Of a stretch of DNA of 64,000 nt, positions 36,289-43,474 are shown one piece after another; the first letter of the stretch is position 1, and each line of letters starts with the position of its first letter. The notes beneath the pieces are model-generated. The model was not told where the DNA came from. It saw only the letters and a program-made list of their open reading frames with translations, and ran no database searches. The position numbers and the translations under genes are program-made. The stretch spans positions 2,976,001-3,040,000 of the forward strand of contig NZ_CP089309.1 of NCBI RefSeq assembly GCF_021228795.1. Direction: 5' to 3'. The DNA is from Thiocapsa bogorovii (lineage in GTDB: Bacteria > Pseudomonadota > Gammaproteobacteria > Chromatiales > Chromatiaceae).

Positions 36289-38442
36289 ATGTTTGTACCG
36301 AGCTACAGATCCGCCTTCGTACTTCTCTTCCTGGTCATGTTGACGCTGACGGTGGCGGGCGTCTCAATCAATGCGTACAGGCGGGCAACGCGCGTGTCCC
36401 TTGACCTCTCCGCAGACATCCTAACGGAAATGTCGGAGAAGGTGATCAATTGCACCGTCGGGCTGGTGGAGCTGAGTCGCGGCCTGTTGGAGAGCGACGC
36501 GGTGGCGGTGCACGAGGGCGGGGGACTGCTGGTACAGCGTGAGCTGCTCCTCGCGCTCTTTGCGAGGCAGCTCACCTTGGTACCGCAGATCCGGTCACTC
36601 TACGTCGCCGATGCGGACGGCAATCTCCTGCAGATGTTTCGGATGCCGTATCCGGCGTCGCGCGTCATCGAGCGTGTACTGCCGGATGGCCGGCGGCTCC
36701 CGAGTCCGCGCGAGCGGATCATCTACCGCACCGCCGACTTCCGTCCCATCGCCAGGCTCATGGGCAGCAGTCGCGAGGATCCCCGCGAACAGTCCTGGTA
36801 CCGCCATGCGACGGATTCTCGGCTACACATCTCCGAACTGCACCGGTTTGCGGCGGACAACAGTCCCGGCGTCACCATGGTACAAGCGGTGCAGACCGCC
36901 GACGGCACCCTGCATGCAGCGCTCGGCGCGGATGTGACGGTGGCGGGCATCTCGGAGATCCTCGCGGCGCAGCGCCTGCCGGCGGGCGGAGTCGTGGTAC
37001 TGGTGGATGCCGAGCGTCGTCTGGTGGCTTTCCCGCCCTGGCTCGAGCTCGCCGAGAGTGCAAAAGACGATCTCCCGCGAATCGATCATCTGAACGCCCG
37101 CTGGCTGGTGGATGCTTACTCGGGCTCCATCGCGAGCTCGGCGCGGGAGCCCGACAACGGGGCCTTCGAACATACCCTGACGGAGACCGACGGGCGCCGG
37201 TACATCACCCACCGGGCGCCCGTGCCGGAGCGGCTTGGCACGGACTGGACGCTGTTCGTCGTCGTACCGGAGGCGTCGCTGCTGAGCGCCGCCGGTCGGG
37301 TCTTCGCCGAATCCGCGGTGATCGCCGTCATTGTGCTGGTGGCCGCGGACTTTGCCGTGTCGGTACTGGCCGTGCGAATGTTCGCGCCGCTCGAGCAGTT
37401 GGTGCACAACACCGAGCGCATCAGTGCGCTGCGCTTCGACGAGGTGGTGCGGGTGCCGTCCCGGTTCCGGGAGATCCGCACCATGGATGCCGCGATCTGG
37501 CGTATGACCCAGGGGTTACAGTCGCTCACCAAGTTTGTGCCGTCGGCGATCGCGCGGCGCCTGGTGCAGTCCGGCACTCCGGCGCACCCGGAAGCGGAGG
37601 TGCGGGAGTTGGCGGTGCTCTTCACCGGTATCTCCAGTCTCGTCACCCTCCGCGGAAGGATGCCGCCGGAGCGCATCACGGCGCTCCTCGGCGCGCAGCT
37701 GGACGCCTTTACCGAGGCCATCTCACATCGTCAGGGTACTGTCGGCAGTTACCTCGGCGAGAGCATCCTCGCCTTCTGGGGCGCGCCCGTCGCGGTGGAC
37801 GACAGTGCCGTGCGCGCCTGCGATGCGGCGCTGGCTTGCATGGAGGCGGAAACCGAGCTGCTCGCCGACTGGGATCCGAGCGACATGCCCGTGCCGCGAA
37901 ATCTGTTCTCGGTGCACCTGGGGCTCTGCATCGTGGGTGCCATCGGGTCCAAGGCGCACATGAGTTACACCGCCGTGGGCGACAGCATTGCCCACGGCTG
38001 GGATCTGCGTCGGCTTAACCGTCGTTATGGTACGCGTATCATCGTGAGCGGTACCGCCAGGGCTCAGGCCGGAGACCGCTTCTGGTTCCGCCGACTGGAC
38101 CGGTTGCCGGCCGGACATCCACTCGCCGGCGATGCGGAGCTGGAACTGTTCGAGCTCGTGGACCGGCGCGAGCATCCCCTCACGACCGCGCGGGCCGCCT
38201 ACATTGACGCCTACGAGGCGGCGCTGACCGCGCTGCAAGCGGAGCAATGGGACACGGCGGAAAACAGCTTTCGCCCGCTCGCCGCTCAGGCGCCTATGGA
38301 TGTGGCGGTGGCACTGATGCTCGAGCGCTGCCGCTTACACGACGCTTGGTGGTGTCCGGGTGCGGTTCGGCAAATCCCGGCTGCACCTGAACCTGCACCA
38401 GCCCCAACCGGACCGTCGCCGTCCGAACGGAGGTCGGCGTGA
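36289..38442 (+). CDS. Membrane sensor with degenerate class III cyclase domain
   Basis: 717 residues. TM1 (~7-27) and TM2 (~343-365) bracket a periplasmic Cache-like sensor domain; a HAMP region follows (APLEQLVHNTERISALRFDE), then a class III nucleotidyl cyclase homology domain (~440-610). Key catalytic residues are changed. The first metal Asp of the usual FTDI is Gly447 (VLFTGISSL). The second, in GDA, is Glu491 (YLGESILAFWGAP). The GDxVN...R segment reads VGDSIAHGWDL. The domain therefore probably does not cyclise nucleotides, though it may bind one. The C-terminal tail is Pro-rich. The ATG has GGGAG 5 nt upstream. Two membrane coiled-coil genes follow directly, so it probably signals to, or with, them. 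Confidence 0.82.
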   Translation: MFVPSYRSAFVLLFLVMLTLTVAGVSINAYRRATRVSLDLSADILTEMSEKVINCTVGLVELSRGLLESDAVAVHEGGGLLVQRELLLALFARQLTLVPQIRSLYVADADGNLLQMFRMPYPASRVIERVLPDGRRLPSPRERIIYRTADFRPIARLMGSSREDPREQSWYRHATDSRLHISELHRFAADNSPGVTMVQAVQTADGTLHAALGADVTVAGISEILAAQRLPAGGVVVLVDAERRLVAFPPWLELAESAKDDLPRIDHLNARWLVDAYSGSIASSAREPDNGAFEHTLTETDGRRYITHRAPVPERLGTDWTLFVVVPEASLLSAAGRVFAESAVIAVIVLVAADFAVSVLAVRMFAPLEQLVHNTERISALRFDEVVRVPSRFREIRTMDAAIWRMTQGLQSLTKFVPSAIARRLVQSGTPAHPEAEVRELAVLFTGISSLVTLRGRMPPERITALLGAQLDAFTEAISHRQGTVGSYLGESILAFWGAPVAVDDSAVRACDAALACMEAETELLADWDPSDMPVPRNLFSVHLGLCIVGAIGSKAHMSYTAVGDSIAHGWDLRRLNRRYGTRIIVSGTARAQAGDRFWFRRLDRLPAGHPLAGDAELELFELVDRREHPLTTARAAYIDAYEAALTALQAEQWDTAENSFRPLAAQAPMDVAVALMLERCRLHDAWWCPGAVRQIPAAPEPAPAPTGPSPSERRSA

Positions 38443-38984
38443 ATCCCGACACCGACCACCAGCTCGATCGGACCATGGCACGCTTCGTGGCGTTCATCGG
38501 GCAGATGAACACCCGCCAGACGGACCTGGAGCAGCGAGTGACCAACCTCTACCTGCTGTCGTTGGTGGCCTTCGTGTTGGTTGTCTCGACGCTGTCCTTT
38601 CTCACCATCATCCTCTCGCAGCAGGTTCCGGGTATCACGGCGGCGATCGAGGATATGAACGCACGCTTCGCAGTCATCGCCGACGACATGGTGGCCATGG
38701 ATCGGAATATTGCCAACATGCAGCGACACATGGAAATCATGCCGTCCCTGGTGTCACACCTGGACGACATCCACGGCAGCGTCGGCTTCATGTCCAACGA
38801 CGTGGCCAGCATGGCGCTCAACATCGACACTATGGACGACACGGTGCTCGGCATGTCCGCAAGCCTCGGCGACATGCGCCTGTCTTTCGAGGTCATGGAG
38901 CAAAGCGTGGGTCGAATGGGGGCTGACATGCGGCACCTCTCACAGCCGATGCGCATGTTCAATTTCTTCAATCCGTTTCGGTAG
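38439..38984 (+). CDS. Met-rich membrane coiled-coil protein 1
   Basis: 181 residues, no named family recognised. A short N-terminal cytoplasmic part with RTMARFVAFIGQMNTRQTDL, one membrane helix (YLLSLVAFVLVVSTLSFLTI), then a ~115-residue amphipathic region with Met about every seventh residue (MNARFAVIADDMVAMDRNIA, MEIMPSLVSHLDDIHGSVGF), reading like a periplasmic coiled coil. It ends in RMFNFFNPFR. The GTG start overlaps the upstream cyclase-like gene stop by 4 bp and has GGAGG 5 nt before it. It is similar in plan to the next gene's product. Such Met-rich repeats are sometimes wrongly labelled as translation factors or chemotaxis proteins. Confidence 0.7.
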   Translation: MNPDTDHQLDRTMARFVAFIGQMNTRQTDLEQRVTNLYLLSLVAFVLVVSTLSFLTIILSQQVPGITAAIEDMNARFAVIADDMVAMDRNIANMQRHMEIMPSLVSHLDDIHGSVGFMSNDVASMALNIDTMDDTVLGMSASLGDMRLSFEVMEQSVGRMGADMRHLSQPMRMFNFFNPFR

Positions 38985-38993
38985 GGATCCACC

Positions 38994-39530
38994 GTGAGCG
39001 ACGCCGATATTGCCGAGCGTGATCGAATCGAGCGTCTGGAGGCGCTTCTGGAGCAACTCCAGCAGGATGCCGACGTCACGGCGCGGCCGAGCCGCCGCAA
39101 CACGCGGCGGGTGAGGTGGTTGATTCGCGTGTTGGGCCTGCTCATGGCCGCGCTAGCGCTGTCGAACCTCTACTTCGTGAACACCTTGACGCAGGATGTG
39201 CGGCAGGTGATCGCGCAGATGGAGATCATGACGAGCTATTTCGTGCGCGTGTCCGAGCGGATGCACAGCATGCGCGGTGCAGTGGCTGCCATGGAGGCGG
39301 ATGTGCGGCTCATGCCCGTGGTGGACGCCCAGGTGACCGCCATCGGCGAGAATGTAGGCGCCATGGGCAACAGCGTCGATGACATGGAGCGAAGCACGGC
39401 CGGCCTGAACCAGCGGGTGGCCAGTATGCGGGGGGCTATGGATGATATGGCCCGGCGCTTCCGCGGGCTCAATGCACGTGTCGGGGCCATGGGGGTAGAT
39501 GTACGTGAAATGGCCAAGCCCGTGCCGTGA
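38994..39530 (+). CDS. Met-rich membrane coiled-coil protein 2
   Basis: 178 residues, a diverged relative of the preceding protein. An N-terminal coiled-coil start (DRIERLEALLEQLQQDADV), a basic stretch (RPSRRNTRRVRW), one membrane helix (LIRVLGLLMAALALSNLYFV), then a Met-spaced helical region containing MEIMTSYFVRVSERMHSMRG and repeated 'AMGNSVDDM/AMGVDVREM' units. It starts 9 bp after the previous stop. The shared MEIM segment right after the membrane region in both proteins suggests duplication. Together with the degenerate cyclase sensor it forms a compact three-gene unit of unknown job. Confidence 0.7.
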   Translation: MSDADIAERDRIERLEALLEQLQQDADVTARPSRRNTRRVRWLIRVLGLLMAALALSNLYFVNTLTQDVRQVIAQMEIMTSYFVRVSERMHSMRGAVAAMEADVRLMPVVDAQVTAIGENVGAMGNSVDDMERSTAGLNQRVASMRGAMDDMARRFRGLNARVGAMGVDVREMAKPVP

Positions 39531-39796: not shown

Positions 39797-41029
39797 ATGG
39801 AGCTTTTGGACGGTATCATCCGGATCGATTCATTCCTTGCCGTGACGATCGGTATTATCGTGCTGTTCGTCGGCAAGCTGCTGAACGGCAAGATCGGTTT
39901 TCTGCGGGAGTTCAGTATCCCCGAGCCGGTCACCGGCGGCCTGCTCTTCTCGGTCCTCTTCGGGCTGCTCTACTTTGCCTCGGGGCACGCGATCGAGTTC
40001 GAGCTGCGTGCGCGCGATATCCTGCTGGTCTACTTTTTCACCACCATCGGCATCAACGCGAGCGCGCGCGATTTGCTGGCCGGCGGCCGCCCGCTCTTGA
40101 TCCTGCTGACGATCACGATCGCCTTCATGTTCGCGCAGAACCTCACCGGGATCGGGGTGGCCTCGCTCTTCGATCTGCCGGCGGCGGTCGGCGTGGTTGG
40201 GGGCAGCATGTCCTTGATCGGCGGACACGGCACGACCATCGCTTGGGCACCTTCGATCGCCGAGAACTTCGGGATCTCCAATGCGATGGAGATCGGCATC
40301 GCCAGCGCGACCTTCGGCCTGATCCTCGCCAGCATCATGGGCGGACCGATCGCGAAGTTCCTGATCACGCGTCACAAGCTCAAGCCGGTGCCGCATGTCG
40401 TCGAAGAGGTTCAGGACGTCGGGCTAACCGAGAAACAGCGCAAGGAAGGCGTCGATCACATGGACTTTCTGGGCGCCGTGCTCGCCATCCATATCTGCAT
40501 CATCATCGGCTATGCGCTCAACGAGGCGATCGCGGAGGCCGGCCTCATGCTGCCGCTCTTCGTGACCTGCCTCTTCGCAGGCATCCTGATCACGAATCTA
40601 GTGCCTAAGAACTTCTCCAAATGGAGCGGGGTCACCTGGCCGACCCGTACGCCGGCGGTCGCGCTGATCGCGGACATCTCGCTCGGCGCCTTCCTGGCCA
40701 TGTCTCTCATGAGCATGCAGCTCTGGACCCTGATTGATCTGGCGGGACCCATCTTCACCATCCTGGCGGCTCAGTTCGTCTTGGCGGTGACGGTTACCAT
40801 CTTTGTGCTGTTCCCCTTGATGGGCAAGAACTACGATGCGGCGGTCGTCTCGGCCGGGTTCGGCGGTGTGACGCTCGGATCCACGCCGACGGCCATGGCC
40901 AACATGGCGGCGGTCACCCAACGTTTCGGCCCGTCGCACCGGGCCTTCATCATCGTGCCGTTGGTCTCGGCCTTCTTCATCGACCTGACCAATGCGATGG
41001 TGATCCCGTTTTTCCTGAGGACCTTTTAG
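39797..41029 (+). CDS. gltS: Sodium/glutamate symporter GltS
   Basis: 410 residues, inner membrane. Two homologous halves of about five helices each, typical of GltS. Family stretches include the re-entrant-type GVVGGSMSLIGGHGTTIAWA and, in the second half, AAVVSAGFGGVTLGSTPTAM, which carry substrate and Na+ binding. It would import glutamate with Na+. The start at 39797 follows AGAGG; upstream in-frame codons look non-coding. The ~265 bp before it (39531-39796) hold no recognisable feature. It converges on a small lipoprotein gene, with a strong stem-loop between them. Confidence 0.93.
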   Translation: MELLDGIIRIDSFLAVTIGIIVLFVGKLLNGKIGFLREFSIPEPVTGGLLFSVLFGLLYFASGHAIEFELRARDILLVYFFTTIGINASARDLLAGGRPLLILLTITIAFMFAQNLTGIGVASLFDLPAAVGVVGGSMSLIGGHGTTIAWAPSIAENFGISNAMEIGIASATFGLILASIMGGPIAKFLITRHKLKPVPHVVEEVQDVGLTEKQRKEGVDHMDFLGAVLAIHICIIIGYALNEAIAEAGLMLPLFVTCLFAGILITNLVPKNFSKWSGVTWPTRTPAVALIADISLGAFLAMSLMSMQLWTLIDLAGPIFTILAAQFVLAVTVTIFVLFPLMGKNYDAAVVSAGFGGVTLGSTPTAMANMAAVTQRFGPSHRAFIIVPLVSAFFIDLTNAMVIPFFLRTF

Positions 41030-41552: not shown

Positions 41553-41639
41553 TTAAACCGCGCCAGTTCGGACGTTCCAAGAGCCCGGCGAGTGAGTTCC
41601 AATAGATACACGATACGTGCCGCTCTGGGCGCGGTTTAA
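41553..41639. repeat. 87-bp inverted-repeat element (copy C)
   Basis: Ends TTAAACCGCGCC (41553-41564) and its complement (41628-41639) match over 12 bp, 13 with the flanking A/T. The interior is unlike copy B but partly resembles copy F. The SLC13-type gene (minus strand) ends in it; the TAA stop is bases 2-4 of the repeat end. Confidence 0.8.
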
Positions 41640-43474
41640 TAGAGCGGCAGCAGCCAAGGCACCAGAAGCACGCTCATGATCATGACCAACAGCGTCAAGG
41701 GCAAGCCGATGCGAATGAAATCCGCAAAGGTGTAGTTGCCCGCGGTCGCGACCAGGGTGTTGATGGGCGAGATGGGCGTCATGAAGGCGGACGATGCCGC
41801 GAGCGCGATGATCATCGCAAAGGGGTAGGGCGATGCACCCAGGGCTTCGGCGACCGCGAGCGCGACCGGGATCATCAGGACCGCGTTGGCCGTATTCACG
41901 ATGAAGAGGCCCAGCAGCACTGTAATGGCGAACAAGACCCCGAGCACCGCATAGGGGCCGGCGCCCCCGATCCAGGCCACCAAGGCGTTCGCCGCGATGT
42001 CCACTCCCCCGGTACGGTCCAGGGCGAGGGCGAAGGGCATCATGCCCACGATCATCACGAGGCTCCTCAGCTGGATCGCGCGGTATGCCTTGTCCAGATC
42101 GATGCAGCGAAAAAGACCCATCAGGAGACAGCCGATCAGGGCGGCCTGGACGTTCGGGACGATTCCGGTCGCCATCAGGGCGACCACCACGACGAGTGTG
42201 AGAACCGCATAGGGTGCGCGCTTGGCCGCCGGCAGGTATTCGTCGAACTCCTTGGGAAGATTGAGCACGATCAGATCGTGCGTATCCTCCTGCAGGCGGC
42301 GGATCGTCTTCCAGGGTCCGACGAGCAGCAGCGTATCGCCCACCTTCAGGGTCTCCGCGCGCAGCCCGTGCGGTGCATGGGCCTCCGGGCCGCGCCGCAT
42401 CCCGACCACGGTCAGCTCGGAGCGGACCATCCGCTCCGCCTCCGCGATCGTCTTGCCGGTAAAGCGCGACTCGTCCGCGATCATGCTCTCCACCATGCCG
42501 ATGTCCTGAGACCGGTCGACGAAATAGCGGCCGGTCCGCGGCAGGAGCTCGACGCCGTAGCGCTTGCAGAACTCGGCCACGTCGATCCGTTTCTCCTCCA
42601 GATCGACGTCGACCAAGAGGATGTCGTGCGGCTGCAGCAAGGTCTGCGGCGTGCGCGGGAGCAATTGGCGCGAACGGCCGAGACCGCGCTCGACGAGGAT
42701 GATCCGCACACCGATCTTCGCGGGCAGATCCAGCTCGCCCAGCGTTTTGCCGAGCAAGGGCGAGTCGGGACGCACCCGCACGCGATATTCGCGATCGGCG
42801 AGCCGGTAGCGCTCGACCCACTGCATGAGTTTCGGGCGCGTCCGGGCCGTCGGCGTCTCCGGCGTTTTCGGGCGCAGCCATCGCTGCGTGACCAGCATGT
42901 AGAGCGTCGCCATCAGCAGGATCGGCAATCCAAACGGCGTGAATGAGAAAAAATTGAACCCCTCCGCGCCGGTGCGGACGAGCTCGTAGTTGATCACCAG
43001 ATTGGGCGAGGTGGCGACCAAGGTCATCATGCCGCTGATGAGCGCGGCATAGGCCATCGGCATCATCAGCTGGCTCGCCGGGATGCGGCGCCGGCTCGCG
43101 ATCCGCAGCACCACTGGGATAAAGATGGCTACCACACCGGTCGAGCTCATGACCGAGCCGAGCAGACCGACCGACAGCATCAGCAGCACCAGAAGCCGCC
43201 AGGCACTGTTGCCGCCGCGATGGGCCAGCCAATCGCCGATGCCGCGTGCCACCCCGGTCCGAGCCAGCGCTTCGCCGATCACGAACATGGCCGCGATCAG
43301 GACGATGTTGGGATTGCTGAAACCGGCGAGCGCCTCCTGGACCGTGATCACGCCGGTAAAGGGCAAAGCGATCATCATGATGAGGGCGACGGCATCCACC
43401 CGCGGCTTGTTGAGCGCGAACATCAGGATCGCGGCGCCCAGCATGAGAAGGACGATCAGAAGGTCTTGCGACAT
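41636..43474 (-). CDS. SLC13-family transporter with RCK_C (TrkA-C) domains
   Basis: 612 residues, inner membrane. Two membrane halves carry the anion:Na+ symporter hairpins (first half LVATSPNLVINYELV, second half SSAFMTPISPINTLVATAGN). Two TrkA-C domains sit between them (~215-300 and ~305-390; e.g. SPLLGKTLGELDLPAKIGVR, LRAETLKVGDTLLLVGPW). Likely substrates are sulfate, thiosulfate or dicarboxylates; the sequence does not decide. In a sulfur bacterium an inorganic sulfur anion is plausible. GGAGG lies 7 nt before the ATG. The stop codon lies in repeat copy C. Confidence 0.88.
   Translation of the reverse strand: MSQDLLIVLLMLGAAILMFALNKPRVDAVALIMMIALPFTGVITVQEALAGFSNPNIVLIAAMFVIGEALARTGVARGIGDWLAHRGGNSAWRLLVLLMLSVGLLGSVMSSTGVVAIFIPVVLRIASRRRIPASQLMMPMAYAALISGMMTLVATSPNLVINYELVRTGAEGFNFFSFTPFGLPILLMATLYMLVTQRWLRPKTPETPTARTRPKLMQWVERYRLADREYRVRVRPDSPLLGKTLGELDLPAKIGVRIILVERGLGRSRQLLPRTPQTLLQPHDILLVDVDLEEKRIDVAEFCKRYGVELLPRTGRYFVDRSQDIGMVESMIADESRFTGKTIAEAERMVRSELTVVGMRRGPEAHAPHGLRAETLKVGDTLLLVGPWKTIRRLQEDTHDLIVLNLPKEFDEYLPAAKRAPYAVLTLVVVVALMATGIVPNVQAALIGCLLMGLFRCIDLDKAYRAIQLRSLVMIVGMMPFALALDRTGGVDIAANALVAWIGGAGPYAVLGVLFAITVLLGLFIVNTANAVLMIPVALAVAEALGASPYPFAMIIALAASSAFMTPISPINTLVATAGNYTFADFIRIGLPLTLLVMIMSVLLVPWLLPLY

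Follow-up and report, generated by a model that had tools for sequence, protein, structure and literature searches.

A receptor with a degenerate class III cyclase domain and two methionine-rich coiled-coil proteins are encoded as a conserved three-gene unit in Chromatiaceae

The inner-membrane receptor LapD of Pseudomonas fluorescens acts on a periplasmic partner through degenerate enzyme domains plus a HAMP domain (PMC3032553). The locus described here, in Thiocapsa bogorovii, resembles LapD in its predicted inner-membrane receptor, degenerate signalling-enzyme domain, probable working without catalysis and predicted periplasmic partners. LapD has GGDEF-EAL domains, a confirmed HAMP domain and the LapG protease as partner, whereas the unit has a class III cyclase fold, a dCache sensor, a HAMP-like linker undetected by Pfam and two coiled-coil partners (A and B) encoded alongside. 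The nearest catalytic relatives that we found, the intact dCache-cyclase receptors L178 and L179, share the dCache, transmembrane (TM) helix, linker and class III cyclase with the unit receptors but keep the active site D/K/D/T/N/R. On the sensor side, PctA, PctB and PctC (dCache_1AA) have the dCache fold in common with all of these receptors and the ligand motif in common with most unit orthologues; the T. bogorovii receptor differs from PctA at three motif positions, where Y121, R126 and Y144 are replaced by E, Q and H, and in having an output that is not MCP. In another class, OEP-MFP-RND efflux operons carry A-B directly behind the RND gene, whereas no RND gene is present at the T. bogorovii locus and A-B is no known pump subunit.

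The window, the whole 64,000-nt stretch of T. bogorovii DNA that was analysed, contains the receptor, A and B as open reading frames on one strand (36289-38442, 38439-38984 and 38994-39530), each with a plausible ribosome-binding site upstream of its start. The receptor and A genes overlap by 4 bp (GTGA) and 9 bp separate A from B, in agreement with the contiguous arrangement described by the first-pass annotation. The next gene downstream of B, at 39797, encodes a GltS glutamate symporter. The features are as follows.

36289-39530, + strand: three-gene unit receptor-A-B
36289..38442, + strand: receptor, 717 aa, comprising TM1, dCache, TM2, HAMP-like linker, degenerate class III cyclase domain and TPR-like C-terminus
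36313..36369, + strand: receptor TM1, by hydropathy
36370..37299, + strand: periplasmic dCache sensor domain, by profile match and motif alignment
37318..37374, + strand: receptor TM2, by hydropathy
37375..37530, + strand: HAMP-like linker, undetected by Pfam, by sequence pattern and position only
37531..38148, + strand: degenerate class III cyclase-like domain, with Asp1 replaced by G, Lys by S, Asp2 by E, Asn by A and Arg by D
38182..38358, + strand: TPR-like C-terminal region, kept in receptors without the cyclase domain, by sequence comparison
38439..38984, + strand: A, 181 aa, GTG start, predicted single-TM, N-in protein with a periplasmic Met-heptad coiled coil
38556..38612, + strand: transmembrane helix of A, aa 40-58, by hydropathy
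38790..38918, + strand: methionine ladder of A, M118-125-132-139-146-153-160, at exact 7-residue spacing
38994..39530, + strand: B, 178 aa, GTG start, paralogue of A, predicted single-TM, N-in protein with a periplasmic Met-rich coiled coil
39123..39179, + strand: transmembrane helix of B, aa 44-62, with RRNTRRVR before it

Receptor-A-B adjacency was found in 17 genomes from five genera of the family Chromatiaceae. The first-pass annotation had proposed a search for this gene order in other genomes, and had named as evidence against its reading small genes that never lie near such sensors; the order is conserved, and the small genes do lie there. All 15 units with complete A and B genes fall into one clade of the A-B tree (SH-aLRT 97), within which the linkage to the receptor was never broken among the loci recovered, and the pairwise distances of receptor, A and B are correlated (r=0.964-0.978; 0/2000 permutations). 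Within the genus of the window, identity to congeners is 90-96% for the neighbouring genes and 33-40% for the three cassette genes, while the T. bogorovii receptor and A share 71-73% identity with their counterparts in another genus (G143, a Thiohalocapsa MAG), implying that the three genes were exchanged as a block. The congeners' cassette (L070, L071, L073, L172) occupies the same neighbourhood with a different junction and in the opposite orientation relative to T. bogorovii, and cassette versions with and without the cyclase domain replace one another. The CitMHS/TrkA_C permease gene at 41636-43474 of the window has its orthologue directly upstream of the receptor gene in these congeners (the gap is 3 bp for L070 and L073 and about 190 bp for L071 and L172). 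Other neighbours include HSP90 genes upstream of the unit in L065-L068 and, in genera g16 and g18 (L065-L069, L183), a PF05618 zinc-protease-like gene that overlaps or nearly abuts the receptor gene.

The double Cache of the T. bogorovii receptor lies between two TM helices, the arrangement of a dCache_1 receptor. Its match to PF02743 (E=6e-8) is below the Pfam cut-off (GA), and orthologues score above GA, reaching 68 bits in L066. In PctA, the dCache_1AA motif consists of Y121, R126, W128, Y129, Y144 and D173 (PMC10104139). The aligned residues are Y/F, R, W, Y/F, Y and D in most unit receptors and E, Q, W, Y, H and D in those of T. bogorovii and G143, so that the motif is broken in the T. 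bogorovii receptor at two key positions and at the Y144 equivalent. Amino-acid or amine sensing is likely for the receptor family, judging by these residues, and uncertain for the T. bogorovii member. Of the Cache-HAMP-cyclase layout originally proposed, the dCache and the cyclase-like domain were recovered, but the HAMP domain was not: PF00672 gave no Pfam match at E up to 10 in the receptor or in homologues with an intact active site, and the linker after TM2 is HAMP-like in pattern and position as judged by eye. An AF2 model of the receptor built from three sequences was unusable (pLDDT 37).

The cyclase-like domain of T. bogorovii scores below threshold in Pfam (E=0.11), and it matches the solved cyclases CyaC (1wc0, 4e-13, phmmer against the PDB) and CyaB (3r5g, 1e-26, profile search). 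This homology is significant and assigns the domain to the class III cyclase fold as a predicted non-catalytic homologue. Both metal Asp residues are lost (Gly and Glu in the cyclase-domain alignment), as the first-pass annotation had read them, and the substrate and transition-state residues Lys, Asn and Arg of catalytic class III cyclases are replaced as well. Across the 12 unit receptors that have the domain, Asp1, Lys and Asn are lost in every case and Arg in most; at the Asp2 position, eight carry Glu and four keep Asp (L004, L072, L075, L174). The active site D/K/D/T/N/R is present in 17/17 homologous cyclase domains outside receptor-A-B units. A-B was absent beside the cyclase domains of L049-L062, for each of which at least some 1.2 kb of downstream sequence was covered, and within 18 kb of L178; L179 sits at a contig end, and in L080 the cyclase gene lies on the opposite strand of an A-B-bearing locus and is not co-operonic with A-B. 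The sole matches of the unit in a defence library were the homology of the cyclase domain (PycC) and a weak similarity of B to ZorA.

Five unit receptors lack the cyclase domain altogether. Those of L070, L071, L073 and L172 (521-534 aa) retain the TPR-like tail, and that of L074 (376 aa) ends 15-20 residues past TM2, with neither HAMP-like linker nor cyclase domain. The domain therefore cannot be the obligatory output, and coupling in L074 must take place in the membrane or the periplasm.

A and B match each other as paralogues (28% identity, E=9e-12), and each has the one membrane helix previously reported. Methionine accounts for 18/181 residues in A, and across 99 A-B pairs Met-Met pairs at lags of 7, 14 and 21 residues are 2.5-3.5 times the shuffled mean; with the 7-residue ladder of A, this bears out the Met-spaced helical repeats of the earlier description. 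Its MEIM segment does follow the helix closely in B (aa 76-79), but in A it is 40 residues past the helix (aa 98-101) and the two do not align; MEIM was rejected as a common motif, since the MEIMP of A aligns with the VRLMP of B and the likeness is coincidental. Basic residues (K+R) number about 3.4 in the 15 positions before the helix and about 1 after it, with more before than after in 97/99 A and 94/99 B proteins and the reverse never seen. By the positive-inside charge rule, A and B are predicted to be N-in with periplasmic coiled coils, which means that a cytoplasmic cyclase domain could not act on them directly. AF2 modelled A as almost all helix at low confidence, a PDB profile search with A returned generic coiled coils only, and Pfam and NCBIfam hold no model above cut-off for A or B. 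Tandem order at 99 loci and the clade structure rule out a chance likeness of coiled coils. The pair belongs to an unnamed tandem family of adjacent same-strand paralogues, each with one N-in TM helix, a Met-heptad periplasmic helix and a C-terminal Pro-containing motif. We found no account of it in searches of the open-access literature, and a plasmid search with an A homologue gave no match.

We favour, at a probability of roughly 45%, a receptor-A-B complex that is coupled through the membrane and periplasm and has a dispensable cytoplasmic pseudo-enzyme. Receptor, A and B would form one inner-membrane signalling complex, in which the dCache would bind a small periplasmic ligand (by ancestry an amino acid or amine, with a pocket that may have drifted in the T. 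bogorovii version). Ligand binding would shift TM2, and the signal would reach A and B by a path inside the membrane and periplasm; these two proteins may build a heteromeric coiled-coil rod, N-in and C-out, with a methionine core. The dead cyclase domain would be retained for dimerisation, docking or modulation, and some lineages would do without it. Direct support comes from the conserved unit, its co-inheritance and block exchange, the dead active site, selection on the domain and its loss elsewhere, and the Met heptads; the dCache motif retained in most orthologues, an A/B topology that is never reversed and the adjacency in 17 genomes likewise argue for a complex. From these we infer the physical association, the ligand, the direction of the signal and the next step taken by A-B. 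The first-pass idea of a signalling unit holds for the conserved cassette and for the pseudoenzyme throughout, but not for its mechanism of a cyclase domain acting through HAMP on partner coiled coils, given the periplasmic coiled coils, the undetected HAMP and the five receptors without the domain. The receptor may best be read as a variant of pseudoenzyme receptors with LapD-like logic, joined to an unnamed A/B family.

A-B is also a wider module than the receptor unit. A-B-type matches occur in 94/146 genomes of the family at E<=0.001 with a single-sequence query, and in 180/195 genomes of an order sample with a profile that also catches single generic coiled coils; pairs also extend beyond this family, and beyond this class, within the phylum. 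Single proteins with a weak A/B-profile match (L144, 7356-7901; L145, 7240-7647) and the single hits in L161 and L163 were excluded from the pair set as possibly generic TM coiled coils. For 69 of the 99 gammaproteobacterial pairs, no signalling or pump partner was recognised, and these often sit between housekeeping genes (e.g., ThiC, Maf and ABC-F ATPase), implying that A-B has a receptor-independent function. Genes for cyclases, EAL or GGDEF proteins or receptors make up 28/98 same-strand A-B neighbours vs 13/961 other genes in the same loci, an enrichment that counts related genomes repeatedly and is inflated by shared ancestry; the A-B tree calls for perhaps four to five independent gains. 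Examples include genus g22 (L076, L164, L165), where a class III cyclase gene with both metal Asp intact starts -4 to 12 bp after A-B (with a TPR-S domain in L076; L166, also g22, is truncated), EAL genes adjoining A-B in L078 and L149, and a REC-PAS-GGDEF-EAL gene upstream of A-B in genus g42 (L100, L189, L195, L196, L200, L202, L207, L208).

Within another class of the phylum, A-B directly follows an RND permease gene at 14-15 of 20 fetched loci (14 complete pairs plus L234 at a contig end), in the order OEP-MFP-RND-A-B by Pfam in L228, and it lies likewise behind an RND permease in the gammaproteobacterial L147. Downstream of RND-A-B we observed an EAL gene (L228, L235), a cNMP-binding symporter (L227) and FGE-sulfatase-like genes (L238, L241). 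It is possible, if tentative, that A-B is a general, so far undescribed two-protein periplasmic coiled-coil effector module plugged into dCache pseudo-cyclase receptors, RND pumps and possibly EAL or cyclase enzymes, machines that would act on the envelope through one shared methionine-core rod. The RND-operon linkage hints at transport or envelope work and speaks against the favoured complex. Together with the many partnerless pairs, it would also fit envelope or efflux accessories, with the periplasmic coiled coil as an adaptor or spacer, that do no more than accompany various membrane proteins and that the receptor regulates or stabilises little. We consider this unlikely, because linkage is unbroken in the receptor clade and the three genes were exchanged as a block.

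Selection on the cyclase-like domain bears on a second reading, to which we give similarly low odds. Under inside-out control as in LapD, the pseudo-cyclase would sense a cytoplasmic nucleotide or partner and alter the periplasmic side and A-B through the HAMP-like linker and TM helices, with the dCache as a second, modulating input. The precedent of LapD itself favours this (PMC3032553). In genus g16 purifying selection acts strongly on the dead domain (omega 0.03-0.15, at or below the 0.14-0.24 of the dCache half), a constraint implying that it does something specific. However, in the more distant T. bogorovii-G143 pair conservation of the domain does not exceed that of the rest (omega 0.27 vs 0.22), loss of the metal Asp is accompanied by loss of the nucleotide-binding Lys and Asn and, in most receptors, of Arg, HAMP is undetected by Pfam, and five unit receptors have no such domain. 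Selection on the domain and its loss in some receptors together indicate that it is useful where kept and not needed for the A-B partnership.

Alternatively, A-B could use its methionine ladder to sense or buffer Cu(I)/Ag(I) or oxidants in the periplasm, with the receptor gene as its regulator. Methionine is enriched 5-6x only in the periplasmic part (11.6-12.8% after the helix across the 99 pairs vs 2.2% in ORFs generally) and is heptad-spaced, but such spacing at one position is expected from a hydrophobic coiled-coil core, the alignments of A and B showed no Cys/His clusters, and for the linked RND proteins the multidrug model (NF033617) outscores that of CusA/CzcA, so that we regard this role as quite improbable. 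Full or partial cyclase activity of the cyclase-like domain, by itself or in a heterodimer, is very hard to credit despite its fold homology to CyaC and CyaB and the Asp2 of four receptors, since with Asp1, Lys and Asn lost in 12/12 the domain could contribute to neither side of a composite active site, and a catalytic or composite cyclase was ruled out on six residues across the 12 receptors.

Active cyclase receptors, pseudo-cyclase receptors with A-B and domain-deleted receptors still with A-B make up a natural series, which allows one to ask how receptor output switches from a second messenger to a protein partner. The comparison also exposes a widespread, uncharacterised gene pair that lies beyond Pfam and NCBIfam models and beside sensors, c-di-GMP and cyclic-nucleotide enzymes and RND pumps. 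The conserved three-gene unit itself points to an undescribed route of signal relay across the cell envelope.
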